A stretch of DNA of 64,000 nt, taken from assembly GCF_003383615.1 (NCBI RefSeq), contig NZ_QNUL01000001.1, positions 62,001 to 126,000 on the forward strand, written 5' to 3'. The translations under genes and the position numbers were made by a program. Numbering within the stretch: the stretch's first letter is position 1; each line of letters begins with the position of its first letter. Below, piece after piece: positions 19,296 through 34,456 of the stretch. This stretch comes from Dyadobacter luteus. Its GTDB lineage: Bacteria; Bacteroidota; Bacteroidia; Cytophagales; Spirosomataceae. Under the pieces are notes generated by a model, which saw nothing but the letters and a program-made list of their open reading frames with translations, ran no database searches and was not told where the DNA came from.

Positions 19296-21179
19296 ATGAA
19301 AAAGCTATTAATCATCTTCATGCTGCTTGCAGCATTCCCATTACTCGCAGACCACATCGTGGGAGGCGAGTTACGATTGAGCCACACTGGTAATAATCGT
19401 TACAACATTTCTCTTATTCAATTTTGGGACGGAAATAACCTCATCATTCCCACCAATACAACCGGCGGAAACCGCGATAATAGTGCAGTTATTTTTATAT
19501 ATAATAAAAGGACGCGGGCTTATATGGATCAGGTAATAGCACAATACATTTCTACGGATGATATCCCCTATCAGAACAAGGCCTGTGCAATTTTTAAATC
19601 TCTTCATACTTCTGTGGGAGTCTACGAGGGAAGCATTTCGCTTAGCCCACAGCGGTATAATGATCCTGACGGATATTATATGGTATGGGAACGATGTTGC
19701 AGGAATTCAGATATTACTAATATTAAAGAGCCACAAACCAACGGAATCACAGTATATCTCGAATTTCCGCCGGTGAGTATCAGCAATTCTTCTCCACAGT
19801 TTCAAATACCAAATGGACAATACATCTGCACGAACAGAGATTTTACCATGAATATGTCTGCTATTGATAGTGACGGAGACGAGCTCAGGTATGCTCTTGT
19901 CAATCCACTGCGAGGGCACACCAGCACACGGCAGTCCAATGGTGATAACACAGTGAAAAGTAGCTACCCCGAAGTGGAATGGTCCAATGGTTTTTCACTG
20001 CAGAATGTAATTTCGGGAAGCAAGCCTCTCCGGATCGATCAGAATGGTATCTTATATGTCAATTCCAATGCAACCGGACTTTTTGTATTTGCAATACAGT
20101 GTGAGGAATACAGAAACGGTAAAAAAATCGGGGTTGTCAGAAGAGAATTTCAACTGATGGTAATCGACTGTGACGACGAGGCGCCAGATGTACCCGTGGT
20201 GACAGTCAGCGATTTGCCTGTCACAAACATAACTATGTGTTCAGTTCATGCGGTCACACTGGCGATAAAACAGGAATCCGACTGGACCTACCAATGGCAA
20301 AAAAACGGATTTAATATTCCCGGTGCCACTGCTCCCAATGTGACAGTGAGCGATACCGGAAGCTACTCGGTGATAAAGAGTTACACAAAGAAATGTACGC
20401 GCGACACTACGTCGGCACCCGTTCGAGTGCGACTGCAACCACCTCCGCCAATTGAAATCACATCGCAAGAAAGTAGTATTTGCCCAAATGAAAGGATGCT
20501 CCTCACGGGCTCCATTAATGATCCTGAGCGATTCATTTACCAATGGTCCCACAACAACGCAGTGGTAGCCAGCTCGATCAACGAACTTGTTATAAACCAG
20601 CCGGGTAATTACAAGCTGATAGCTCAGGATATAGAGTCTGGCTGTAAATCTGAAAATTCAATTTATATCTCACCCGGCGAGTTGTTAGTAACACTACCGG
20701 ATACCATTACCGGAAATGAAGGCGCTGACATTTCGATACAGCCGGATGTTTTCCCTGATCATGGAGGCAATCAATTCTCATGGACAACAATTGCAGATCC
20801 GGGTTTTTCTTTGTCAACAAAAAATATATCGGTGAGTTTGGCTGAAGATACAGAATTTACGCTTGATGTATCCTCTTCATCAGGTTGCCTCGCCTCTTCA
20901 TCTGTTTTTGTTAAAATCCTCAGTCCTATATACATTCCCACCGCGTTCACACCTGATCATGACGGAATAAACGATACATTTCAGATCTTCAATGCCAAAG
21001 ATCGTGTACAGGCAGTTACCATTTACAATCGATGGGGACAGGTCATCTTTCGGTCAGAAGGATATAAGGTTCCCTGGGATGGTACTTTTCAAAATGCCAA
21101 AGTAAGTGCCGGAAGTTACCCTTACATTATCCAAACCAACGAGACAATTTACAAAGGTGAACTCCTGATTATCCGCTAA
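19296..21179 (+). CDS. Surface protein with T9SS type B sorting domain
   Basis: A 627-residue exported protein. A signal peptide (MKKLLIIFMLLAAFPLLA) is followed by an N-terminal domain beginning HIVGGEL and containing the paired-cysteine motif VWERCCRN, then two Ig- or PKD-like beta domains (about residues 300-460) with cysteine pairs, and a C-terminal gliding-motility-type sorting domain (IPTAFTPDHDGINDTF, VTIYNRWGQVIF, GSYPYIIQT). The last element directs secretion by the type IX system and attachment to the cell surface. The N-terminal domain is closely related to that of the protein at 55517. Its function may be adhesion or gliding. Its stop is one base from the stop of the convergent XRE gene. 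Confidence 0.88.
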   Translation: MKKLLIIFMLLAAFPLLADHIVGGELRLSHTGNNRYNISLIQFWDGNNLIIPTNTTGGNRDNSAVIFIYNKRTRAYMDQVIAQYISTDDIPYQNKACAIFKSLHTSVGVYEGSISLSPQRYNDPDGYYMVWERCCRNSDITNIKEPQTNGITVYLEFPPVSISNSSPQFQIPNGQYICTNRDFTMNMSAIDSDGDELRYALVNPLRGHTSTRQSNGDNTVKSSYPEVEWSNGFSLQNVISGSKPLRIDQNGILYVNSNATGLFVFAIQCEEYRNGKKIGVVRREFQLMVIDCDDEAPDVPVVTVSDLPVTNITMCSVHAVTLAIKQESDWTYQWQKNGFNIPGATAPNVTVSDTGSYSVIKSYTKKCTRDTTSAPVRVRLQPPPPIEITSQESSICPNERMLLTGSINDPERFIYQWSHNNAVVASSINELVINQPGNYKLIAQDIESGCKSENSIYISPGELLVTLPDTITGNEGADISIQPDVFPDHGGNQFSWTTIADPGFSLSTKNISVSLAEDTEFTLDVSSSSGCLASSSVFVKILSPIYIPTAFTPDHDGINDTFQIFNAKDRVQAVTIYNRWGQVIFRSEGYKVPWDGTFQNAKVSAGSYPYIIQTNETIYKGELLIIR

Positions 21180-22983: not shown

Positions 22984-24018
<1,035 letters not shown>

Positions 24019-24035
24019 TCAATCTGGTTTCTTAT

Positions 24036-24078
24036 AAAAACAGGGCTTCGGATGTATTTTCCGAAGCCCTGTTTTTTT
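24036..24078. terminator. Bidirectional terminator between gap and trmB
   Basis: Perfect 11-bp arms CAGGGCTTCGG (24041-24051) and CCGAAGCCCTG (24061-24071), with A5 on the left and T7 on the right, serving the convergent gap and trmB transcripts. Confidence 0.93.
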
Positions 24079-24109
24079 GTCGGTATATATTAAAATCCGG
24101 ATCCTGGTA

Positions 24110-24769
24110 TTATCTCAGCCTGGCCTTAATGTATTTAATCGAATAACCCTTCCCTACGAAAATCTGCTCATAGTGCGTTTTAACACCGTAATGTTCAGTA
24201 AGTAATTCAGATTCGTACAGGTTATCCGTATATTCAAGTATCTCAAAATGCGCTGACTCTGAAATGGTTTCCAAACTGTATTCATACAAAAACGAGCTGT
24301 CTGTTTTTAAATAAAACATTCCGTTGTCTTTAAGGAACCGGGAATACATATCCAGAAAACGGTTATTGGTAAGCCGCTTGTTCTCATCCCTGTCGCGTAC
24401 CTGAGGATCCGGATGAACCAGCCATATTTCGTCCACTTCCTTTTCTGAAAAGAACTCATCAGAATACTGTATCCCTGTTCTCAAAAAAGCTACGTTTGTT
24501 AAATTAGCTTCGCTGGCAGCCAGGCTCCCTCTTGCAATTCTGTCGCCTTTGATATCGACACCGATAAAATTCTTATCCGGAAACTGCTTACCTAACCCGA
24601 TGGTATATTCCCCTTTGCCGCAAGCCAGTTCAAGTACGATAGGATTCGCATTTTTGAAATATAATTCATTCCATTTACCCTTTACTGTAGTATAAAGCGG
24701 CTTCTCTGCCTGGATCACATTATCGGCCTGAGCACTGAACTCATAATGTGCCAACTTTCTTCTTGACAT
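24110..24769 (-). CDS. trmB: tRNA (guanine(46)-N7)-methyltransferase
   Basis: Methylates G46 in the variable loop of tRNAs using S-adenosylmethionine. At 219 residues it is typical. The SAM-binding region is IVLELACGKGEYTIGL at about 44-59, followed by FIGVDIKGDR. The family block DEIWLVHPDPQVRDRDENKRLTN, containing the substrate-contacting aspartate, lies near the middle, and FLKDNGMFYLKTDS is close behind. It starts 25 bases after the folC stop on the same strand, so the two are probably co-transcribed. Confidence 0.95.
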   Translation of the reverse strand: MSRRKLAHYEFSAQADNVIQAEKPLYTTVKGKWNELYFKNANPIVLELACGKGEYTIGLGKQFPDKNFIGVDIKGDRIARGSLAASEANLTNVAFLRTGIQYSDEFFSEKEVDEIWLVHPDPQVRDRDENKRLTNNRFLDMYSRFLKDNGMFYLKTDSSFLYEYSLETISESAHFEILEYTDNLYESELLTEHYGVKTHYEQIFVGKGYSIKYIKARLR

Positions 24770-24794
24770 TTCTTAACTCTGTATTAATTGTTAA

Positions 24795-26093
24795 CTATAA
24801 ATTATCGAGGTCGGCCACTACGAACGTACTGCCTCCTACGTAAATGCAATCTTCAGGATCTGAATCGGCGATGGCAGCATTAAGGGCATCATTTACGTTA
24901 AAGTAATAATTTCCCGTCAGTCCAAACCCGCTTGCGAGTTCCTGTAATTTCTCAGCCTTTAGTGCTCTTGAATTAGTTGGCTCCGTAAAATAAAAAATCG
25001 CCTCAGAGTGCATCATCGCCAGCATAGCAGAGATATCCTTGTCTCCAACAAAACCAATCACGTAGCGGTGTTTTTTTGCAGTTAAACCAGCGAATTGCTT
25101 AAGTGTTTGCGTTAGTCCCGCTACGTTATGAGCAGTATCGCAGTAAATGGCAGGTGAATCACCGAGTTTTTGCCATCTGCCTTTCAACCCTGTAAGAGTA
25201 GTCACTCTCCTTAATGCACTGTATACCGCAGAAGATTCAATCTGAAGACCACTTACTTTCAACAGTTCGACTGCCTGGAGTACTCCGGCAACGTTTTTGA
25301 TCTGATAAGATCCCACCAGATCAATTTCCAGATTCGGGTAGGATACTTCGGAATGGTCCGCCGGCCCGGCGTTGACAACCGAAAGGCCATTTTGCATACC
25401 GACATTTTCAACCCTGATTCTTTCAGAAGCAAAAAAGACAGGTGCCTGCTTTCCTTCAGCAACAGCCTTAAAAACTTCGGCTGTTTCCTCCTGGTACTCG
25501 CTCACCACTACCGGCGTATTCTGTTTAATAATTCCTGCTTTTTCTACGGCGATTTTCTCCAGTGTATCACCAAGAAACTGTGTATGATCGAAACTGACAT
25601 TCGTGATCACTGAAAGTTCGGGCAGGATTACGTTTGTAGAATCCAGCCTTCCGCCCATGCCTACCTCTATAACCGCCACATCCACCTGCTCGTGCGCAAA
25701 GTATGCGAAAGCCATGGCTACTGTAACTTCGAAGAACGAAGGGCTTAATCTATCAATGTTAGATAAATTACCAGCAATAAAATCAACTATGTAATCCTGA
25801 TTGATTTCCTTACCGTTTATCCGGATTCTCTCCGTAAACGATTTAAGATGAGGGGATGTATACAGCCCAACCTTGTATCCCGCTTCCTGTAAAATGGCAG
25901 CGAGCATATGTGAAGTACTTCCCTTACCGTTGGTTCCACCAACGTGTATTGTCTTGTACTTATCCTGAGGGTTATCAAGTATTTTACAAAGTTCAAGCGT
26001 AGTAGTAAGGCCCGGCTTATAAGCACGGGCCCCTATATTTTGAAAAACCGGAAGTCTGCTGTACAGGTATTCAATCGTTTCCTGATAATTCAT
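24795..26093 (-). CDS. folC: Bifunctional folylpolyglutamate synthase/dihydrofolate synthase
   Basis: Adds glutamate to dihydropteroate and to folates, in the cytoplasm. At 432 residues it has family length. The ATP loop GGTNGKGSTS is at about 52-61, followed by GLYTSPHLKSFTERIRING. VIEVGMGGRLDSTNV and SVITNVSFDHTQFLGDTLE are the ligase-family Mur-like blocks. The C-terminal domain begins near CDTAHNVAGL. It starts six bases after the stop of the TonB-like gene upstream, so translation may be coupled. Confidence 0.95.
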   Translation of the reverse strand: MNYQETIEYLYSRLPVFQNIGARAYKPGLTTTLELCKILDNPQDKYKTIHVGGTNGKGSTSHMLAAILQEAGYKVGLYTSPHLKSFTERIRINGKEINQDYIVDFIAGNLSNIDRLSPSFFEVTVAMAFAYFAHEQVDVAVIEVGMGGRLDSTNVILPELSVITNVSFDHTQFLGDTLEKIAVEKAGIIKQNTPVVVSEYQEETAEVFKAVAEGKQAPVFFASERIRVENVGMQNGLSVVNAGPADHSEVSYPNLEIDLVGSYQIKNVAGVLQAVELLKVSGLQIESSAVYSALRRVTTLTGLKGRWQKLGDSPAIYCDTAHNVAGLTQTLKQFAGLTAKKHRYVIGFVGDKDISAMLAMMHSEAIFYFTEPTNSRALKAEKLQELASGFGLTGNYYFNVNDALNAAIADSDPEDCIYVGGSTFVVADLDNL

Positions 26094-26099
26094 TCTTTT

Positions 26100-27029
26100 T
26101 TAACGAGAGCGTATTTTAAAGGTGATAGTACCTGTAGATTCATCAGGTACGTTTGCTGATTTAGGAACAAAGACAATCGCTCTTACTGCGTTCTTATATT
26201 TATTAATAACAGCATAGTCAGTAACTGTCGAGTTCTGTTGGATGATACTTTTTACTCGTCCGTTACGATCAACTGTGATCTTGAATGTAATATCTCCGGT
26301 AACATCAGAATTATCGTCAACCACGGGTCTGCCGCTCATTCCGAATCCTGACAGGTTCAGGCTTGTCCCGGCACCATTACCACCACTTCCCTCACCCTTG
26401 TAGGTCTTAGAAAACAGGCTTCCTGTTTTGGATCCCTTGTCACCTACACCATCGGCATCATCTCCATTGTTATTTCCTCCAATTCCGGACTTAGTTCCGT
26501 TGGTACCATTGCTACCTGACTTACTGCCCGAAGACTTCGTAAACAAAGCGTCTTTGTTCACAGCTTTTTCCGGAGCAGGTTTAACAGCCGGAGCTGAAGA
26601 GGTTGCACTACCCGTAGATTTCTTCGTCTCAGTTTTCTCAGGTGCTTCAACAGGACTTTCGGTTTTTGAGGTGATAACAGGTTTCTCCGCAACCGTCTTG
26701 GTCGGCTTGGTTGACTCTACTTTAGGTGGTGTAGGAGGAGTTGGTTTAGGAGTAGCAACAGACTTCACCTTCTTCACCTCGTCAGCATCCGCCTTCATAT
26801 TCTCAGCAACCTTGGAATCATTAGGTTTATTAAAGGTCTGAATATCCCCTTTCCCCACTTTACTGGTACCGTAATTGACCTCCACAAAAAGTTCTAGTGG
26901 CTCAACCTTTGGAATAGAGCTACTCAGTCGTATAAAAAAGAATAAGCCAAGAATAGCCAGGGTAATCCCTACGGATAAAGCCCACGACACTGCAATTCTC
27001 TGACGATCTTCTGCCTGTAATACAATCAT
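26100..27029 (-). CDS. TonB-like energy transducer
   Basis: A 309-residue protein with one N-terminal membrane helix (about 13-33, SWALSVGITLAILGLFFFI), a long proline-, lysine- and threonine-rich periplasmic linker (about 60-150), a glycine/asparagine-rich segment (GSKSGSNGTNG..., about 165-215), and a C-terminal TonB-like domain (GDITFKITVDRNGRVKSI, TGTITFKI). TonB proteins span the periplasm and power outer-membrane receptors such as SusC. No exbB or exbD is adjacent. The C-terminal fold is only weakly TonB-like, so a related cell-envelope role is possible. Confidence 0.75.
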   Translation of the reverse strand: MIVLQAEDRQRIAVSWALSVGITLAILGLFFFIRLSSSIPKVEPLELFVEVNYGTSKVGKGDIQTFNKPNDSKVAENMKADADEVKKVKSVATPKPTPPTPPKVESTKPTKTVAEKPVITSKTESPVEAPEKTETKKSTGSATSSAPAVKPAPEKAVNKDALFTKSSGSKSGSNGTNGTKSGIGGNNNGDDADGVGDKGSKTGSLFSKTYKGEGSGGNGAGTSLNLSGFGMSGRPVVDDNSDVTGDITFKITVDRNGRVKSIIQQNSTVTDYAVINKYKNAVRAIVFVPKSANVPDESTGTITFKIRSR

Positions 27030-27091
27030 TGTATTTTGATGTTTGTTATTTGGCTCAACAACGTAAAATTAAAAACTTTCGTATAAACCGC

Positions 27092-27118
27092 AAAGAGGAA
27101 GCCTAAGGCTCCCTCTTT
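27092..27118 (-). terminator. Intrinsic terminator after the HU/SPOR gene
   Basis: Arms AAAGAGG (27092-27098) and CCTCTTT (27112-27118) plus inner AGCC/GGCT, one mismatch, three-base loop. The minus-strand RNA runs into a U-rich region. It separates the envelope operon from the TonB-like gene. Confidence 0.75.
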
Positions 27119-27144
27119 ACCAATTATATAGCTTTAACGCTAAA

Positions 27145-28218
27145 TTACTTCATTTTTAAAACCCACCCAGGCTCACCGATCACTGATTTGAGTTTGCCTG
27201 ATGCAGCATAAGCCTCATTTTCAGCATCGAAGCCCTGGACAGCTACTGTAAACTTTTTACTGTGTTTTCCTGCTGGAAGAACTATCGCATCTTTGAAACC
27301 TTTCCCCTGCAAATCTTCCTTTAAAACAGTAGCACGCTTCATTCCATTAAATGCTCCTGCGATCAGGTAAAATTTCTTTTGCTCCGTAACAGGCTCAGGT
27401 GCTGGTGTTGTTACTGCCGGAGCAGCTGCTGGTACAGGTGTTACAACTACAGGCTCAGCTACTACAGAAATAGAGTCAGCTTTCTTCTCTTCTGTTACTG
27501 TTTCACCAACAATTGGTGCAACTTCCACTATTTCTTCTTCTTTCTGAACAGGATCTACCAAAATCGTTTCTTCCTTCTCAGCTGAAAAATCAAATGGATT
27601 TAAAGTGCTCTTATTGTTACCGGAATTTGAGGTTACCAGAAAGAAACTTACATAAACCATCAATCCTGCAAGCATAGCGGCCGATGCCCATCTTACCCAG
27701 TTCACGCTGCGAACTTTTCTTGAATCCAGTTCAAGTACTTCAACATGATGCTCTTCCTCTGCAACCTGAACAGTTTCTACTTTAACAGGCTCAGGTCTCT
27801 CTATCATTTTTACCGCAACCTTCGAAAAGCCATACCACTCGTCCTTAAAGCAGTTGATTACATTGGGTTCGAAAACCAGCTTGCCTTCAACATTCTTGTT
27901 AAAGTGACCTATCCCTTCAATAACTGTTTGCCCTTTGGTAACAAGAGTAGATTTCAGGTTCTCAGTATATTCCTTTATCCGTGCTATAGCTTCCGAATGA
28001 GAAATATTCTCTTCCCTTGAAATGTAGTTAGCCAGGAAGCCATCGTCCAGTTTCAGAAACTCGTTAAATGCAAGTTTTTTAACAGGTGGCGCAAATATCC
28101 CTGAATTTTGATCATACACAGCCGGAACCTGCCTTGACAGCAAAGCACCGAATCCGGGAATAATCACGAATTCATAATCACTAACTAATTTCTTTATTAC
28201 CGTTTCGACAGCAGTCAT
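27145..28218 (-). CDS. HU/CCDC81-like domain protein with membrane helix and SPOR domain
   Basis: A 357-residue protein with three parts. Residues about 1-125 resemble the bacterial HU-CCDC81 pair, a fold related to the DNA-binding protein HU (VIKKLVSDYEFVIIPGFGALL, RIKEYTENLKSTLVTKGQT, IEGIGHF). Residues about 175-196 are a single membrane helix (WASAAMLAGLMVYVSFFLV). A long acidic/proline linker leads to a SPOR domain at about 281-357 (KKFYLIAGAFNGMKRATVLKE), which in known proteins binds denuded peptidoglycan at division sites. The topology implies the HU-like part in the cytoplasm and SPOR in the periplasm. It is the third gene of an envelope operon with the barrel gene and the large TPR gene. 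Confidence 0.85.
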   Translation of the reverse strand: MTAVETVIKKLVSDYEFVIIPGFGALLSRQVPAVYDQNSGIFAPPVKKLAFNEFLKLDDGFLANYISREENISHSEAIARIKEYTENLKSTLVTKGQTVIEGIGHFNKNVEGKLVFEPNVINCFKDEWYGFSKVAVKMIERPEPVKVETVQVAEEEHHVEVLELDSRKVRSVNWVRWASAAMLAGLMVYVSFFLVTSNSGNNKSTLNPFDFSAEKEETILVDPVQKEEEIVEVAPIVGETVTEEKKADSISVVAEPVVVTPVPAAAPAVTTPAPEPVTEQKKFYLIAGAFNGMKRATVLKEDLQGKGFKDAIVLPAGKHSKKFTVAVQGFDAENEAYAASGKLKSVIGEPGWVLKMK

Positions 28219-28248
28219 GCAGTACTTGTTCAGATGTATTTGGCGAAA

Positions 28249-29916
28249 TTAAAAAGAAAATGATAATCCTCCAATAAAATTTAGACCCTGCTGAGGATAG
28301 TACTGATATCTCTGATACTGCTTCCCAAGCACGTTATTGATGGCCACAAAGGCAGAGAAGTTCTTGGTTAACAGATAATCTATCTTAAGATTCAGATCGG
28401 CGATAACGGGTAGTTTTGTAACTACGCCAGACTGAAAATTTTTCGCTTTTATACCTCTTTGTGTATAAAGATCTGCTGTTACAAACAGTTTTTTACTTAC
28501 CGTTACGGCATTGAACCAGTTCAAAGTAAGGTCCGGACGATGCCATACTTCTTCCACAACACCTACAGAATAATTAAAGAAATTGACTTTTAATGATGTC
28601 TTGAAAATTTCGTTGAAGTTATAGCCTGCCTGGCCGGAAATCGTCAGTACATTCGTTTTACCCGGATCATAGATGATGGAAAACTTTGACGTATCTGCAA
28701 GTGAGTTGTTGAAATTATAGAAGTTGCGATACCTGGCATACGACACTTTTCCTTCGTAATTAAAGCCATCCGCTTCTCCTTTCACACCAGCATACATATC
28801 TCCTGTCTTTTCGGTATTGGCAATCAAAACGTTAGCCCCCAACCATTGATTCTCGCTCAACATACTCTTTAACGTATTTCTTACGATATCTCCGTTATAA
28901 CCAGCGAAAATGTGCAGACCAGAAAACGGTGTAACATCAAAATTGATTAACGGAAATGCCTTTGTTCTGTTAATTCCGAGTTGGTTGTCCGTTTCGTTTA
29001 CAGCATTCAAACCGGCAGTTACCGTGAAAACGTCAGATGCGTACTTGAATGTTGGTTTTACTCTGAACAGGTTTCGGTTGTAAGTAAGCCTGTCAACGCG
29101 CTGTGAAAGGAACGCATCCGCTTCAAGCAAGGCATAAAACGACTCAGAAATCGGTACAGCAGCGGTCAGCTTTGTCCCCCAATCCAGCTCAGACGCGTTG
29201 TAACGGTCTGTCAAAGTATTAAGACTTGTCTTTACAGAGTAATCAACGGCCACGGAAGCATCTGTATTCTCAAATCCCAGGTTGATGCCAAACTGATTGA
29301 TTGTCTGGCGGAGACTGTCTCTGTTTACAACCACTCCTTCCGGCTGTGGCTTGTATCCATAGAAGTAATAATTTTTCCTGTCGTAACCCAGGGACGCTTC
29401 AACTTTGTAGGTTTCACGAATGTATTTTCCACCCACTTTCAGATTTGTTGCTGCATTTGCCGAGTTTTTGCCATCCACCGGACCATTTGCTGCCGAAAGA
29501 TGTTTGAGCTGCGCAGTGAAGAGCAAATCATCAGATGGTCTTGCTCCTACGAAACCTTCACCAAGAAACCGGCCATAATTACCCGCTCCTAGTTTAATGT
29601 AATTGTTTAACACGCCCGGCATTTCAGATCTTTCCTTTTCATCTGAAGATACGCCTACTGCCGGGGTAAGCTTGGGCGCGGAGATATTAATGTTCGGATC
29701 TAAAATCTCATAGTTCACCTTCTTCTGGCCGGCCTGGCCCTGAACAGGTTGAACCTTATCATATATACGCGCCGCAGGGGCAAACTCAATACTTTTCTCT
29801 TTTACAATTTCGTATGTCTGGCTTTCGATTTCCCCTCTCTGTGCGATGGCAAAGTTGGAAGAAAATCCCAGAGTTAAAATGAATAAGGAACCTCGCAATA
29901 TGCTTGAATTCATCAT
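28249..29916 (-). CDS. Outer-membrane beta-barrel protein, TonB-receptor-like without plug
   Basis: A 555-residue outer-membrane protein. A signal peptide (about 1-25, ending FAIAQ) is followed by a short periplasmic stretch and then alternating hydrophobic/hydrophilic strands to the end, with a terminal aromatic (GLSFSF). The last third resembles TonB-dependent receptor barrels (NFSAFVAINNVLGKQYQRY), but no plug domain or TonB box is seen. It lies 32 bases downstream of the large TPR gene and 30 bases upstream of the HU/SPOR gene, so all three are likely one operon. The family is common in Bacteroidota and its role is not defined. Confidence 0.8.
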   Translation of the reverse strand: MMNSSILRGSLFILTLGFSSNFAIAQRGEIESQTYEIVKEKSIEFAPAARIYDKVQPVQGQAGQKKVNYEILDPNINISAPKLTPAVGVSSDEKERSEMPGVLNNYIKLGAGNYGRFLGEGFVGARPSDDLLFTAQLKHLSAANGPVDGKNSANAATNLKVGGKYIRETYKVEASLGYDRKNYYFYGYKPQPEGVVVNRDSLRQTINQFGINLGFENTDASVAVDYSVKTSLNTLTDRYNASELDWGTKLTAAVPISESFYALLEADAFLSQRVDRLTYNRNLFRVKPTFKYASDVFTVTAGLNAVNETDNQLGINRTKAFPLINFDVTPFSGLHIFAGYNGDIVRNTLKSMLSENQWLGANVLIANTEKTGDMYAGVKGEADGFNYEGKVSYARYRNFYNFNNSLADTSKFSIIYDPGKTNVLTISGQAGYNFNEIFKTSLKVNFFNYSVGVVEEVWHRPDLTLNWFNAVTVSKKLFVTADLYTQRGIKAKNFQSGVVTKLPVIADLNLKIDYLLTKNFSAFVAINNVLGKQYQRYQYYPQQGLNFIGGLSFSF

Positions 29917-29948
29917 AATAGTATTTTTACTTTAACGGAGTTAATGGT

Positions 29949-32900
29949 CTATTTCGAAATCTGAGCCAACTTTTCTTTGGCTAGTTTAACGGCGTCTTCA
30001 TCATCAGAGTTATCGATGATAGAGTTCAGGGTTGCTTTTGCCTGCCCCATTTCATTTAAGCCAACATATACCTCAGCCAATAAAATAAAAGAGCGTACGC
30101 GCCAGTAATCATAGCCCTCGAAATTTTTCGCCATTTCAATTATTGCAGCCTCCGCTTCCTTGTATTTTTTCGTTTTATGAAGGATTACCGCATTCCAGTA
30201 GCTGGCTTCCGCCCCATATTCATCTTTTGAATTAGCTGCTACTTTTTTAAACTCCTCCACCGCTTTGGTCATATCACCTTTATCATAAGGCACTTTACCT
30301 AAATACAACTGCGCTTTGCCTAATCCGCCCGGAATAATATTTCCTGCTGTAATCACTTCTCTTGCATAATACAGAGTTGAATCATAGCTCTTCAGCGTAT
30401 AATAATTGTCCATCAACCCAATCCACGCCTGAGCCTGTTCTTTTTTACTCTCTGCATTTCTGAGCAGAATACGGAAATTGGTAATTGCATTGTTATGATT
30501 ACCTCTTGCTATCTCCAGTTCAGCCGAGCGCTGTGCAGCAGCTGCAACGAAGGTAGATCTGTTCTCCTGCACAACTTTACTGAAATACTTTAATGCCTCA
30601 GCCACATCACCGGTTTTATCATAAGATGAACCAATAAAGTAACGGGCATCATATTGGTGCTTACTTGCCGGATATGAATTCAGGAATTCAAGCAGTGATT
30701 TTTTAGCATTATCGTATTTTTCAGCATAATAAAGGTTTCGCACGTTGTCGAACTCCACTTCTTCCAGCTTTTCGTTTCCGGGATTGTTCTTACGTACTAC
30801 ACCCAGAACCTGCGTAAACTCCTCCGGGCGCCCAACTGCTGAATAAGCCTCCTGAATACCTTCCAAGGCACTGCTTGCCGACTGTGAGTCAGAAAATTCA
30901 GTCAATATCTTTTTAAAATCGACAATTGCCTGCTCATAAACCTGCAGGTTATAGTAAGACTGGGCTCTTCTCAGCAAAGCTGCAGGAATGAGCAAGCTTT
31001 TAGGCTTTTCATTAATCATTCTCGTGAAGCCCTTCACAGCAGCTGAATAACTTTGATTCTGGAAATCAATATCGGCAATCTGGAAATAAGCATCGTCCAG
31101 GTAACGCGACTGAGGGTATGAGCTGATTAACAATTCAAACTGACGGCGTGCTTCAGCCTCGCGATTCATGTACACATAAGCTCTCGCTTTCTGGTATGTA
31201 GCATAATCTTTATCCGATTTTCCGTTGATAGCCACCTTCTCATAAGTGCGGATAGCTTCATCATAATTTTTAGCAGCCAGGTAACAGTCTGCCAGACGTG
31301 CATGCGCATCTTCTATGATCTGCGTATCGATACCATTCAGGTTAGTTACGAAATCTTTAAAATACCCCAGTGCCTGACTATATTTTTTCTGATTGTAATA
31401 AACGTACCCAAGTGCATACAGACTCTTGCGTGCATAAATACCAGCCTTAGGATTTTTAGCAATCTGGTTATAAAGTGCTACTGCCTCGTCGGTTTTCTTC
31501 AAACCATAAACTGACTCAGCCTTATAAAAGCTAGCCGAATTATAAATTTCCTCATCAATAGGAAATTTCAGCGACTTGTCGAATAGCGCCACAGCTGCAT
31601 CAAATCGTTGCTGGTTAAATTCCAGCACGCCTTGATTGTAAGTAAGTCGCTGGTAAGTACCATTTATTTTAGTATTTCGTTTAGTAAGACTTTCAATATA
31701 TCTGATAGCAGCGACATTATTATTAGCACCGGAATATCCTTCTGCTACTAACTCCGTTGCCTCTTCAATATGTTTGCTTTGCGGAAATTGGGTCATGAAA
31801 GCATTGAATTCCTTAATGGCTTCATTATTGTTTCCGGTCTCCAACTGAATCTTAGCGTGATTATAAGAAGCCTCTTCTTTAACAACCTGATTGAAATCCA
31901 GCTTTGCAGCATCACCTAATGATGTTAAAGCAAAGGTTGAATTATTAGTCTTTAAGTAACTGACTCCTAGTAAGTAAGAAGCATACTGCGATACAGAATC
32001 CTTGCCCGCTCCTGTATTCTTTAACACTTGGATTGTTCCATCGTAATTATTACTGCGAAAGAGTGAATGACCATAGTGCAGAGCAATCGCGGGAGGGATT
32101 GTCCCAGATTTCATTTTGTTATAACGCTCGTAAGCTTTTACGGCTGCAGCGTAATCTCCTTTCTCATAATAGACCTCTGCGACATAAAGTGCAACGTCAT
32201 CCAGTTTAGTATTTCCTCTTTGCTGGGTCAACGTCTTTTCTCCGTATTGCAGCAACTGGTCATATTTCTTTTGTTGGTATAAAGAAGAGATAATCCAGTT
32301 GGGAACTTCATTTTTATAATAAGGATGGTTCTCAACCCGTGCAAAATCCTGATAGGCTTCGTCGAAATTGTTTTTCTGGTAGTTGATTACCCCGGCATAA
32401 AACGATGCGTCTCCTGCATTGGCAAAGGAGGCATCTGTCTTTACCTGATTGAACAGGGGAAGAGCTGCATCAGGCTGCTTCGTATTGTAGTACGACATGG
32501 CGAGCTGATACGTGTTCTCTGTCTTTTTAGCATTGTTTCCCGGCAAATTCACAGCCTTGCCCAGGTAGGTTATCGCTTTTTCGTATTCTCCTCCCTCATA
32601 ATAGTATTTACCAAGGTCTCCGTAAATCTGCTGAGCCTTAGGATGCTCCCGGTGATTTTTCACGAACCTGTCAACCTGTACTTCCGCTTCCGGATAATTC
32701 AGATAAAGACCCGTAACTGCTATGTAATACTCTGCAGTTACCTTGTTATAATCACCTGTACTCAAAAGTTTATCCTCTGAACTAAGATACTCTCCAAATT
32801 CCTGCCTGGCGGCCACAAAGTTGGATTTTTCATAATATTCAAGGCCATTGCGAAAGTGTGCATCAGGCTCGGTAATTCCAAGCGTACTCTGAGCAACGGC

Positions 32901-33008
32901 AGCGGACGCACCAAAAGCTAAGTATAACCCAAAGGAATAAGTGCTATGTTTCAGAAGCATAGGGGTTGGTTTGATGAATTGTTGTATTTTAATCTTATTT
33001 TTCGACAT
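29949..33008 (-). CDS. Large periplasmic TPR protein
   Basis: A 1019-residue protein made almost wholly of tetratricopeptide repeats, twenty or more (for example HFRNGLEYYEKSNFVAARQEF, KYYYEGGEYEKAITYLGKA, AYFQIADIDFQNQSYSAAVKG). Several repeats resemble those of the outer-membrane-lipoprotein assembly and YbgF/CpoB type. The longest frame opens with GTG at 33038; the ATG at 33008 (MSKNKIKIQQFIK...) is preferred, with a hydrophobic segment ending AAVAQ at about residues 27-40 acting as signal. As first gene of the operon with the barrel and HU/SPOR proteins, it probably scaffolds a trans-envelope assembly. Partner and function are unproven. Confidence 0.85.
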   Translation of the reverse strand: MSKNKIKIQQFIKPTPMLLKHSTYSFGLYLAFGASAAVAQSTLGITEPDAHFRNGLEYYEKSNFVAARQEFGEYLSSEDKLLSTGDYNKVTAEYYIAVTGLYLNYPEAEVQVDRFVKNHREHPKAQQIYGDLGKYYYEGGEYEKAITYLGKAVNLPGNNAKKTENTYQLAMSYYNTKQPDAALPLFNQVKTDASFANAGDASFYAGVINYQKNNFDEAYQDFARVENHPYYKNEVPNWIISSLYQQKKYDQLLQYGEKTLTQQRGNTKLDDVALYVAEVYYEKGDYAAAVKAYERYNKMKSGTIPPAIALHYGHSLFRSNNYDGTIQVLKNTGAGKDSVSQYASYLLGVSYLKTNNSTFALTSLGDAAKLDFNQVVKEEASYNHAKIQLETGNNNEAIKEFNAFMTQFPQSKHIEEATELVAEGYSGANNNVAAIRYIESLTKRNTKINGTYQRLTYNQGVLEFNQQRFDAAVALFDKSLKFPIDEEIYNSASFYKAESVYGLKKTDEAVALYNQIAKNPKAGIYARKSLYALGYVYYNQKKYSQALGYFKDFVTNLNGIDTQIIEDAHARLADCYLAAKNYDEAIRTYEKVAINGKSDKDYATYQKARAYVYMNREAEARRQFELLISSYPQSRYLDDAYFQIADIDFQNQSYSAAVKGFTRMINEKPKSLLIPAALLRRAQSYYNLQVYEQAIVDFKKILTEFSDSQSASSALEGIQEAYSAVGRPEEFTQVLGVVRKNNPGNEKLEEVEFDNVRNLYYAEKYDNAKKSLLEFLNSYPASKHQYDARYFIGSSYDKTGDVAEALKYFSKVVQENRSTFVAAAAQRSAELEIARGNHNNAITNFRILLRNAESKKEQAQAWIGLMDNYYTLKSYDSTLYYAREVITAGNIIPGGLGKAQLYLGKVPYDKGDMTKAVEEFKKVAANSKDEYGAEASYWNAVILHKTKKYKEAEAAIIEMAKNFEGYDYWRVRSFILLAEVYVGLNEMGQAKATLNSIIDNSDDEDAVKLAKEKLAQISK

Positions 33009-33128
33009 ATAAGGACCAATGTACTGTTGGGAAAACACCCTGGTATCAGAACTAAACAGGTATCTAACGAAAACCTCCTCAAAACCGTATACGTAGTATG
33101 CGAAGGTAGTTTTTTATAATAATGTGTG

Positions 33129-33380
33129 TTAAAAAATCACTTCATTTCTTAGTAGTGTAGCCTGAAACTGCCCTCCCATGCTGTCAAATGTTTGTGCCAC
33201 TGCTCTGAGAAACGGTTCATCAATACATTTCTCGATTTCTTCAACGGTTTCGACCTCATATTGATCGATTTTGTAAGTTTGTTCAAACATTCCGGTTTCA
33301 ACTTTGATAATATACTTGTTATTCCATTGGTATATACCAATCTTAAAGTCTTTGCTGGGTACGTCTTTAATATATCTCAT
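33129..33380 (-). CDS. Small conserved-type hypothetical protein
   Basis: An 83-residue protein of unknown function (MRYIKDVPSKDFKIGIYQWN...). The frame fills the gap between the TPR operon and the divergent lipoprotein gene, has an ATG, and shows ordinary amino-acid composition with alternating beta-strand pattern (KIGIYQWNNKYIIKVE). No membrane segment or known motif is seen. Small proteins of this kind occur widely in Cytophagales, but I cannot name a family. Coding status rests on composition and position. Confidence 0.65.
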   Translation of the reverse strand: MRYIKDVPSKDFKIGIYQWNNKYIIKVETGMFEQTYKIDQYEVETVEEIEKCIDEPFLRAVAQTFDSMGGQFQATLLRNEVIF

Positions 33381-33421
33381 TACAAATAATTTTTCTCAAA
33401 AGTAATCATTTAAGCACTCTA

Positions 33422-34456
33422 ATGAATTTCCAATTTTTAAACAGATATTTGCTAATTATTTTAGTAATAACTTCGATAGGTTGCGGTAATCAAAGAAAAA
33501 AAGATGCAGCTGATTTTTTTCTAAAAGCCAATCATGCATTTCAACAAAAGAATTATACCGAAGCTCTGAGGCTGTATGATGAAGCAATCAACAAGAATCC
33601 GGATTTCGCAGACGCTTATATGAATAAAGGTATCTGTTTGATGAAAATGAGTCAGCCTGCAGATGCCTATGAGATTTTGACAGAAGCAATCCGGATTGAT
33701 CCTACCCTTACACAGGCAAATCTCGTACGGGCAGAAGTGGCGCTCAATTTGGGCAGAACCGCAGAAGCTGATGCTGATTTAAAGCTAATCGAAAAAGACT
33801 ATAAGGACTCTTCACGGTATTTTCTGATCCGGGGAGATTTGTTTCAGGCAAGAAACGAATCGGCCTTATCTGTTTCAGACTATGACCGCGCAATTACTCT
33901 GGACTCAACTAATACAGAAGCTTTGGTCAACAGAGGAGCACTGTACTACAATCAGGCAAATTATGCACTGGCACAGCACGACTTTCGCAGAGCACTTACT
34001 ATTCGTCCCTCGCAAATAGAGGCATTGAATAACCTTGGACTCATCGCGATCCATCAGCATAAACACGATGAAGCGCTAAGATTGTTTGATCAGATATTAT
34101 ACCTGAACCCTGCCAACGCATTGGCTTTGAATAATAAAGGCTATACCCTTCTTCAGTTGGGACGCCTGGATGAAGCTGTTAAACTGATCGACAGATCGCT
34201 GGATATCATGCCGGAAAATGGATATGCGCTACGCAACATGGGCATCTATCATATGAAGTCGGGCGACGTTGAGAAGGCTTTAGCAGAATACAATAAGGCC
34301 ATAGAAATAGCTGAACCTGTTGAAGAACTGTACGGACTTACAGGGCAGGCTTATTTCAAAAAAGGAGACTCTTCCAATGCATGCAAAATCTGGAAGCAAG
34401 GTTCAGTCCTGAAAGATGCGCTGGCTATTTCAGAACTGAAACTACATTGTAAATAG
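33422..34456 (+). CDS. TPR lipoprotein
   Basis: A 344-residue protein with a lipoprotein signal (LLIILVITSIGC, Cys about 21) followed by eight or so tetratricopeptide repeats covering nearly the whole mature chain (ANHAFQQKNYTEALRLYDEA, AYMNKGICLMKMSQPADA, ALNNKGYTLLQLGRLDEAV, ALRNMGIYHMKSGDVEKAL). It is predicted to sit in the outer or inner membrane facing the periplasm as a protein-binding scaffold. It is divergent from the small gene at 33380 (41-base gap) and convergent with menD, the stops lying seven bases apart. Confidence 0.85.
   Translation: MNFQFLNRYLLIILVITSIGCGNQRKKDAADFFLKANHAFQQKNYTEALRLYDEAINKNPDFADAYMNKGICLMKMSQPADAYEILTEAIRIDPTLTQANLVRAEVALNLGRTAEADADLKLIEKDYKDSSRYFLIRGDLFQARNESALSVSDYDRAITLDSTNTEALVNRGALYYNQANYALAQHDFRRALTIRPSQIEALNNLGLIAIHQHKHDEALRLFDQILYLNPANALALNNKGYTLLQLGRLDEAVKLIDRSLDIMPENGYALRNMGIYHMKSGDVEKALAEYNKAIEIAEPVEELYGLTGQAYFKKGDSSNACKIWKQGSVLKDALAISELKLHCK

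Follow-up and report, generated by a model that had tools for sequence, protein, structure and literature searches.

A tandem-HU, membrane-spanning SPOR protein in a conserved Tol-like operon: a possible FtsN-like envelope scaffold of Bacteroidota

A gene of Dyadobacter luteus encodes a protein of 357 residues in which two HU-like domains are joined, through a membrane helix and a linker, to a SPOR domain. We rate at about one in two the probability that this protein is an FtsN-like, SPOR-bearing inner-membrane scaffold of a proton-driven, Tol-like trans-envelope machine of Bacteroidota. As judged from the sequences compared, its gene shares an operon with those of a TolA/TonB-like transducer, a TPR protein and a plug-less, TonB-receptor-like barrel, joined in relatives by tolQ and tolR. 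The protein is more likely to assist a Tol-like motor at the site of division than to tether DNA.

Results

Domain organization

The gene occupies the minus strand of the window, the 64,000-nucleotide stretch of DNA analysed here, with its start at 28218 (28218..27145). The bounds given in an earlier note on this DNA, 27145–28218, are exact, and a frame or strand artefact is ruled out by the plus strand of this segment, which is full of stops. The order of HU-like part, membrane helix, linker and SPOR domain read in that note is borne out by Pfam, the structural model and hydropathy, and its borders (residues 1–125, 175–196 and 281–357) are correct within a few residues. It overlooked, however, that the HU-like part is made of two tandem domains and that a conserved operon surrounds the gene.

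Domain 1 (residues 1–59; 28042..28218, minus strand) is defined by Pfam, conservation and the model, and matches PF18174 (HU-CCDC81_bac_1) with 64.5 bits against a cut-off of 26. Domain 2 (residues 60–129; 27832..28041, minus strand) matches PF18175 (HU-CCDC81_bac_2) with 62.6 bits against 35, in agreement with PDB profile matches and with fold matches over residues 57–127. The two Pfam domains, and the occurrence of two genes in other lineages, rule out a single HU domain. A motif of the F/Y-G-L/F type follows at residues 128–140 (27799..27837, minus strand; YGFSK in the window). The predicted inner-membrane helix spans residues 174–197 (27628..27699, minus strand) and is succeeded by an acidic, proline-rich periplasmic linker (residues 198–279; 27382..27627, minus strand) with pLDDT values mostly below 60. 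The SPOR domain (residues 280–354; 27157..27381, minus strand) matches PF05036 with 26 bits against a cut-off of 21 and superimposes on the SPOR domains of RlpA, DamX and DedD. The AlphaFold2 model, computed with 33 relatives, is confident for the HU tandem (residues 1–120) and for SPOR from residue 281, with pLDDT values of 88–97 in ten-residue blocks; it places a helix at residues 174–197 and leaves the linker disordered. The hydropathy peak, 1.93, falls in the 19-residue segment starting at residue 178.

Lysine and arginine are commoner before than after the membrane helix in 88 of 104 homologues, and equally common in nine. This bias fits an N-in/C-out topology with HU in the cytoplasm and SPOR outside, as the earlier note had proposed. 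The protein thereby resembles FtsN, DamX and DedD of Escherichia coli, which are likewise N-in, single-pass proteins with a C-terminal SPOR domain, but the HU tandem replaces their short cytoplasmic part, and the score against the FtsN model TIGR02223 is 15.1 bits, versus a cut-off of 107.65.

The closest named relatives are found on Dyadobacter contigs. Proteins combining HU-CCDC81_bac and SPOR, with the same domains over the curated cut-offs, occur in most of the class sampled, usually as one copy. A tandem HU profile matches 201 of 247 genomes and 112 of 136 genera of the class, and 121 of 395 genomes of the phylum. The window's own genome contains a single HU-SPOR copy and two SPOR matches; the second SPOR protein is lipoprotein-like and has 187 residues.

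The HU tandem

The HU module is the best-conserved part of the protein, with a mean column identity of 52% versus 33% for the whole protein, in a set of 33 sequences that includes nine from Dyadobacter. Invariant in this set are V18, P21, G24, P44, P45, F51, N52, D59, G60, L62, G104, F116 and G130, and domain 1 bears a near-invariant PGFG/PPxK/FN/DG signature. In the model, domain 1 comprises one helix, a beta sheet and a short arm, and domain 2 comprises the HU helices α1–α2 and a beta hairpin only. The HU arms considered in the earlier note are thus predicted to persist as one short arm of domain 1, domain 2 being armless.

The charge of the tandem departs from that of the basic HU/IHF proteins. 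In the window it has a net charge of −2 and a pI of 5.7; over the 33 sequences the mean values are −2.6 and 6.0, with a negative charge in 26 and never one above +1, and K47 is the one conserved basic position. The domain 1 arm has a net charge of +2 in the window and +1.2 on average. By comparison, the genome encodes three canonical HUs, with net charges of +3 to +5 and pI values of 9.3–9.6. Against the HU profile PF00216 the window protein scores 15.8 bits, below the cut-off of 22.4.

Fold comparison aligns the tandem with single-chain IHF (2iie; Z 6.4 over 91 residues), a match that suggests that the modelled tandem forms an intramolecular pseudo-dimer. Chains of doublet microtubules also match (8v3l_A, Z 8.2 over 119 residues; 8snb_1K, Z 8.1 over 122), Z values near 8 for this part being middling by the comparison tool's own note; both chains are presumably CCDC81. 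A Mycoplasma chain, 9io5_T, which we guess to be GliD, matches with Z 7.5. When the PDB was searched with a profile of the tandem, only domain 2 aligned to HU (best E 0.002), and there was no CCDC81 chain among the matches listed; the link to CCDC81 therefore depends on similarity of fold and on the naming of the Pfam families.

Outside the class, the HU tandem is encoded by two adjacent genes in 17 of 20 loci, with an HU half of 65–72 residues directly before the gene for the remaining HU, membrane and SPOR parts; the fused form occurs in the other three (L052, L054 and L059). A sequencing frameshift was rejected as the cause of the split, which recurs in these 17 loci from different genomes, each with a frame of 65–72 residues. 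All five HU halves scanned exceed the PF00216 cut-off, as do three of the four membrane partners scanned, L057 being below it. In the split lineages the HU halves have a mean net charge of −2.1; the corresponding value for residues 1–90 of the membrane partner, a stretch that takes in some of the acidic linker, is −8.1. That fusion or fission tied both halves speaks, at the sequence level, for the HU1–HU2 pair as a working unit.

Just after HU2, F/Y-G-L/M is followed by alternating hydrophobic residues, often with proline; G130, noted above as invariant, belongs to this motif. Of the 83 fused loci, 63 carry the strict pattern [FY]G[LMFI]. All eight HU-less proteins of family f2 (f1, f2 and so on being family labels of the genome set) have [FY]G[LMFI] as well, and 16 of the 17 split loci show a looser version. 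The background frequency of the pattern is 565 in 5680 windows of 65 residues, a figure that does not translate into a probability because the loci are related. Since the motif outlives the loss of HU, it is a good candidate for a cytoplasmic docking site.

The SPOR domain

The SPOR domain has a typical fold, closest in our comparison to that of RlpA (6i05; Z 9.3, rmsd 2.8 over 74 residues). Excerpts of a published study name a glycan-contacting glutamine in RlpA (Q270), FtsN (Q251) and DamX (Q351) (PMC6895207). Unlike in FtsN, DamX and DedD, this position is occupied by isoleucine in the window protein (I286) and by I or V in 83 of 93 sequences at that column. F290 is mostly kept (F or Y in 68 of 93), as is W352, paired with DamX W416 according to the residue ranges aligned in the fold comparison (W in 65 and aromatic in 83 of 93). 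The domain probably binds glycan.

Genomic context

The conserved gene order is TPR protein, plug-less barrel, HU-TM-SPOR protein, TolQ, TolR, TolA-like protein and FolC, and in the sequences compared it is retained by distant lineages, both within the class and beyond it. The first gene of the operon in the window encodes a large TPR protein with YbgF/CpoB-like repeats (29949..33038, minus strand). An open reading frame of 83 residues (33129–33380, minus strand) stands before it and was matched in place in seven of eight other Dyadobacter loci. A promoter and terminator scan of 24000–33600 gave 17 and 6 sites versus 20.0 and 7.5 expected by shuffling, and was uninformative.

The second gene (28249..29916, minus strand) encodes an outer-membrane barrel of the TonB-dependent-receptor type. 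Its profile matches TonB-dependent receptors in the PDB (best E 3.6e-9); the modelled structure, 22-stranded from residue 106 onward, superimposes on BtuB with Z 23 and an rmsd of 3.4–3.6 over 415–419 residues. Residues 1–102 are disordered (pLDDT below 50), and no Plug domain was found by Pfam in 49 barrel members, four of which match PF00593. The 22-strand barrel of such receptors is therefore present and their N-terminal plug is missing, and the model describes a receptor barrel without a folded plug. In further genomes the barrel was found in 22 of 24 searched (absent from G495 and G362), with one strong match per genome well above the other receptors. In 17 of 19 loci from these further genomes a TPR gene stands at most two genes upstream of the barrel, and TolQ or TolA comes after it in none of the 19. 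A protein whose start presumably corresponds to DNA gyrase subunit B is encoded near the TPR–barrel pair in two unlinked genomes (L182:8526-10571 and L186:2287-4233).

Downstream of the HU-SPOR gene, a TolA/TonB-like force transducer (26100..27029, minus strand) is predicted with an N-terminal helix, a proline-rich middle and a TonB-like C-terminal domain. The N-terminal helix and TonB-like end are present in 40 of 40 TolA-like proteins; single members match the Pfam and NCBIfam TonB_C models below cut-off. The transducer has weak similarity to models of TonB_C and of the AgmX/PglI C-terminus, the latter of which we take to derive from gliding machinery. The last conserved gene of the neighbourhood (24795..26093, minus strand) is assigned by synteny and Mur ligase domains, from which, together with its context, we take it to be folC. 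Elsewhere in the window, a 627-residue protein (19296-21179, plus strand) ends in what is presumably a type B sorting domain of the type IX secretion system.

TPR, barrel, HU-SPOR, TolA and FolC follow one another, without TolQ–TolR, in the window and in eight other loci of Dyadobacter. In the window's genome an operon-type TolQ (264 bits) adjoins a TolR (137 bits) on contig 35; a TolQ/ExbB-type gene accompanied by two ExbD-like genes lies apart from this pair. The motor genes thus stand in the operons of relatives and elsewhere in this genome. MotA_ExbB and ExbD score over the Pfam cut-offs in the two loci scanned, L043 and L074. NCBIfam tolQ and tolR matches stay below cut-off and the ExbB-like protein of L083 scores as tolQ too, so sequence does not settle between a Ton and a Tol type. 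No Pal or TolB was found by Pfam among the proteins of the window operon.

All loci were searched with profiles derived from the window's neighbouring genes and from L043 and L074. Counts refer to 100 loci with an anchor, chosen for spread over families and genera rather than at random; eight further Dyadobacter loci, L080 (no anchor in its gene set) and L004 (too short) were left out. The barrel lies directly upstream of the HU-SPOR gene in 44 loci and the TPR gene was counted in 33; downstream, TolQ is directly next in 35, TolR was counted in 29, the TolA-like gene in 32 and FolC in 18. Loci with the full seven-gene order include L067, L074, L075, L130, L131, L140 and L141. At least one of barrel, TolQ and TolA is linked in 49 loci and none in 51, among them L058, where the simple gene caller took wrong-strand frames.

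In these 51 unlinked loci a cytidylyltransferase gene, which we take to be kdsB, lies directly upstream of HU-SPOR in 17 (L072, L073, L089, L093-L097, L100, L102-L104, L108, L111, L116, L122 and L124), and a gene for a YbgC-like thioesterase lies downstream in nine. The gene after HU-SPOR in two f11 loci (L079:5187-5714 and L081:7979-8527) encodes a protein with an FHA domain and a start that resembles a zinc ribbon; next to a division-linked gene, it is possibly a phosphopeptide reader.

Independent loss of HU and SPOR

Thirteen genomes of the class were listed without an HU match, and all 13 have the barrel. In family f2, the order TPR, barrel, TM protein and TolQ is found in all eight loci, with TolA in eight, TolR in seven and FolC in seven as called. 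The f2 TM protein has no HU. Of seven scanned by Pfam, one (L152) exceeds the SPOR cut-off, four match more weakly and two are not listed, and the assignment of SPOR to these proteins is partly based on the likeness of their ends. Conversely, two f5 genomes encode a divergent HU tandem with a helix and no SPOR match; the two proteins read (L149:857-1486 and L150:3215-3871) share a juxtamembrane motif like HxxLVGDREV. In one f5 genome the slot holds a protein without a Pfam match, and in two f8 genomes nothing was found on that strand in the HU-SPOR slot. HU proteins of only 191–261 residues occur in nine further loci, and the two scanned have no SPOR match. Several f5 and f6 members are too short for a SPOR domain, which together with the two scanned indicates that SPOR is not needed everywhere, and the loss of HU in f2 indicates that HU is not essential to the machine. 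In these sequences HU and SPOR are lost independently of each other while the operon slot persists.

Discussion

The FtsN-like topology and the place in a tolQRA operon are merged here in one gene, which suggests the same FtsN–Tol link that is described for E. coli. In excerpts of that work, TolQ binds the periplasmic part of FtsN, Tol fusions are absent from constriction sites in FtsN-depleted cells, and Tol localisation is also achieved with an FtsA mutant in place of FtsN, so that the role of FtsN there may be indirect (PMC3831626). By analogy, the SPOR domain would, like that of FtsN, keep the protein at septal peptidoglycan, and the membrane or juxtamembrane part would recruit the TolQ–TolR motor, in parallel with the binding of TolQ to FtsN in E. 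coli. The TolA-like protein might then pull on the barrel/TPR pair and so draw the outer membrane in. The HU tandem, as an intramolecular pseudo-dimer, would bind a protein and not DNA, and together with the adjacent F/Y-G-L motif it could report to a cytoplasmic partner, either a divisome protein or TolQ. The gene order, the predicted folds and the losses come straight from the comparisons, whereas the role in division, the transmission of force and the partner of HU are what we infer; the earlier note's link to the division site is, from the SPOR domain and the Tol-like operon, plausible.

Several other readings were weighed. Burroughs and colleagues are said to have predicted in 2017 a role in chromosome partition for bacterial CCDC81-like HU proteins, so the idea of DNA binding is not new. 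In such a role HU would bind the nucleoid and SPOR would hold the septum, thereby linking chromosome segregation to division; the HU fold seen by Pfam and fold comparison, the topology, the positively charged short arm of domain 1 and the five split HU halves scanned, all of which pass the PF00216 cut-off, agree with it. We nevertheless regard it as quite improbable, the least likely of the readings considered, since the HU module is acidic in the window and in most relatives with K47 as its sole conserved basic position, the split halves and their partners are negative on average, domain 2 is armless, the window protein falls short of PF00216, and a whole family, f2, has lost HU and kept the TM protein in the same operon slot. 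The DNA or nucleoid tether favoured in the earlier note is consequently not supported; the tether of a cytoplasmic protein structure that it offered as an alternative fits better. An FtsN/DamX-like anchor for a cytoskeletal or divisome protein alone, whose link to the Tol-like genes would be historical and not functional, is unlikely. Its near-universal presence in the class, the 51 unlinked loci and the lipoprotein-like appearance of the only other SPOR protein detected in the genome would suit such an anchor, but the linkage survives in the same order in distant lineages and through the loss of HU or SPOR.

The TonB-receptor-like barrel and the weak matches of the transducer to TonB_C and to the AgmX/PglI C-terminal models would also be expected of a Ton-type uptake machine, or of a secretion or gliding machine, in which the plug-less barrel would be driven by the motor to serve transport or surface motility rather than division. 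This is rather improbable: the barrel has no folded plug and hence no known gated transport, SPOR points to the septal wall, and the barrel is near-universal, with one strong match per genome above the other receptors. The FtsN-like scaffold of a Tol-like machine, which we prefer, has points against it as well, namely the missing Pal and TolB in the window operon, the 51 of 100 loci that are unlinked, the I or V in place of the SPOR glutamine, and the dispensability of SPOR or HU in some families.

The operon shares with Tol-Pal the combination of TolQ, TolR, a TolA-like protein and a YbgF-like TPR protein, and the unlinked loci with a YbgC-like thioesterase add a further likeness; it differs in having a plug-less TonB-receptor barrel and an HU-TM-SPOR protein instead of TolB and Pal. 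A 2025 survey reported no identifiable tol-pal loci in Bacteroidota and offered PorE as an outer membrane–peptidoglycan tether (PMC12204202). The operon is, like PorE, a candidate for the gap left by the missing loci, but PorE is a CpoB-TolB-Pal-like lipoprotein (PMC12204202), whereas the operon is another gene set that keeps the motor. A search for tol-pal would probably pass it by, because motor and transducer come without an adjacent Pal or TolB in the window. In excerpts of a 2020 review of Tol-Pal the word 'bacteroid' is absent and Chlorobi are named (PMC7391070). Searches of open-licence PMC papers listed none that deals with an HU-SPOR protein or with an operon of this kind; those consulted mention neither this operon, nor the split into two genes, nor forms that lack HU or SPOR, and the Pfam names give no function.

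The likeness to eukaryotic CCDC81, an axonemal microtubule inner protein, lies in the HU fold, with doublet-microtubule chains matching the tandem over about 120 residues; the relation is by fold and Pfam naming and not by a sequence match found here. To our knowledge, eukaryotic CCDC81 carries no membrane helix or SPOR domain. In excerpts of two studies, homologues of CCDC81 are counted among the inner-junction proteins of microtubules in Tetrahymena (PMC11961760, PMC10105768), and one such homologue stabilises CFAP52 (PMC10105768).

Somewhat short of an even chance, and so only tentatively, we extend the preferred reading to a phylum-wide Tol-like division machine of Bacteroidota, in which TolQ–TolR–TolA would pull on a plug-less barrel paired with a giant TPR protein, a SPOR protein uniting FtsN-like and Tol roles would place it at the septum, and an HU fold, encoded by two genes elsewhere, would bind protein and not DNA. 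The split and fused HU forms are a clean case of a DNA-packaging fold seemingly put to another use. The conserved operon of motor, barrel, TPR protein and SPOR scaffold bears on how the Bacteroidota, dominant in gut and soil, draw in their outer membrane at division without Tol-Pal, and brings that question within reach of gene deletion in common laboratory strains.
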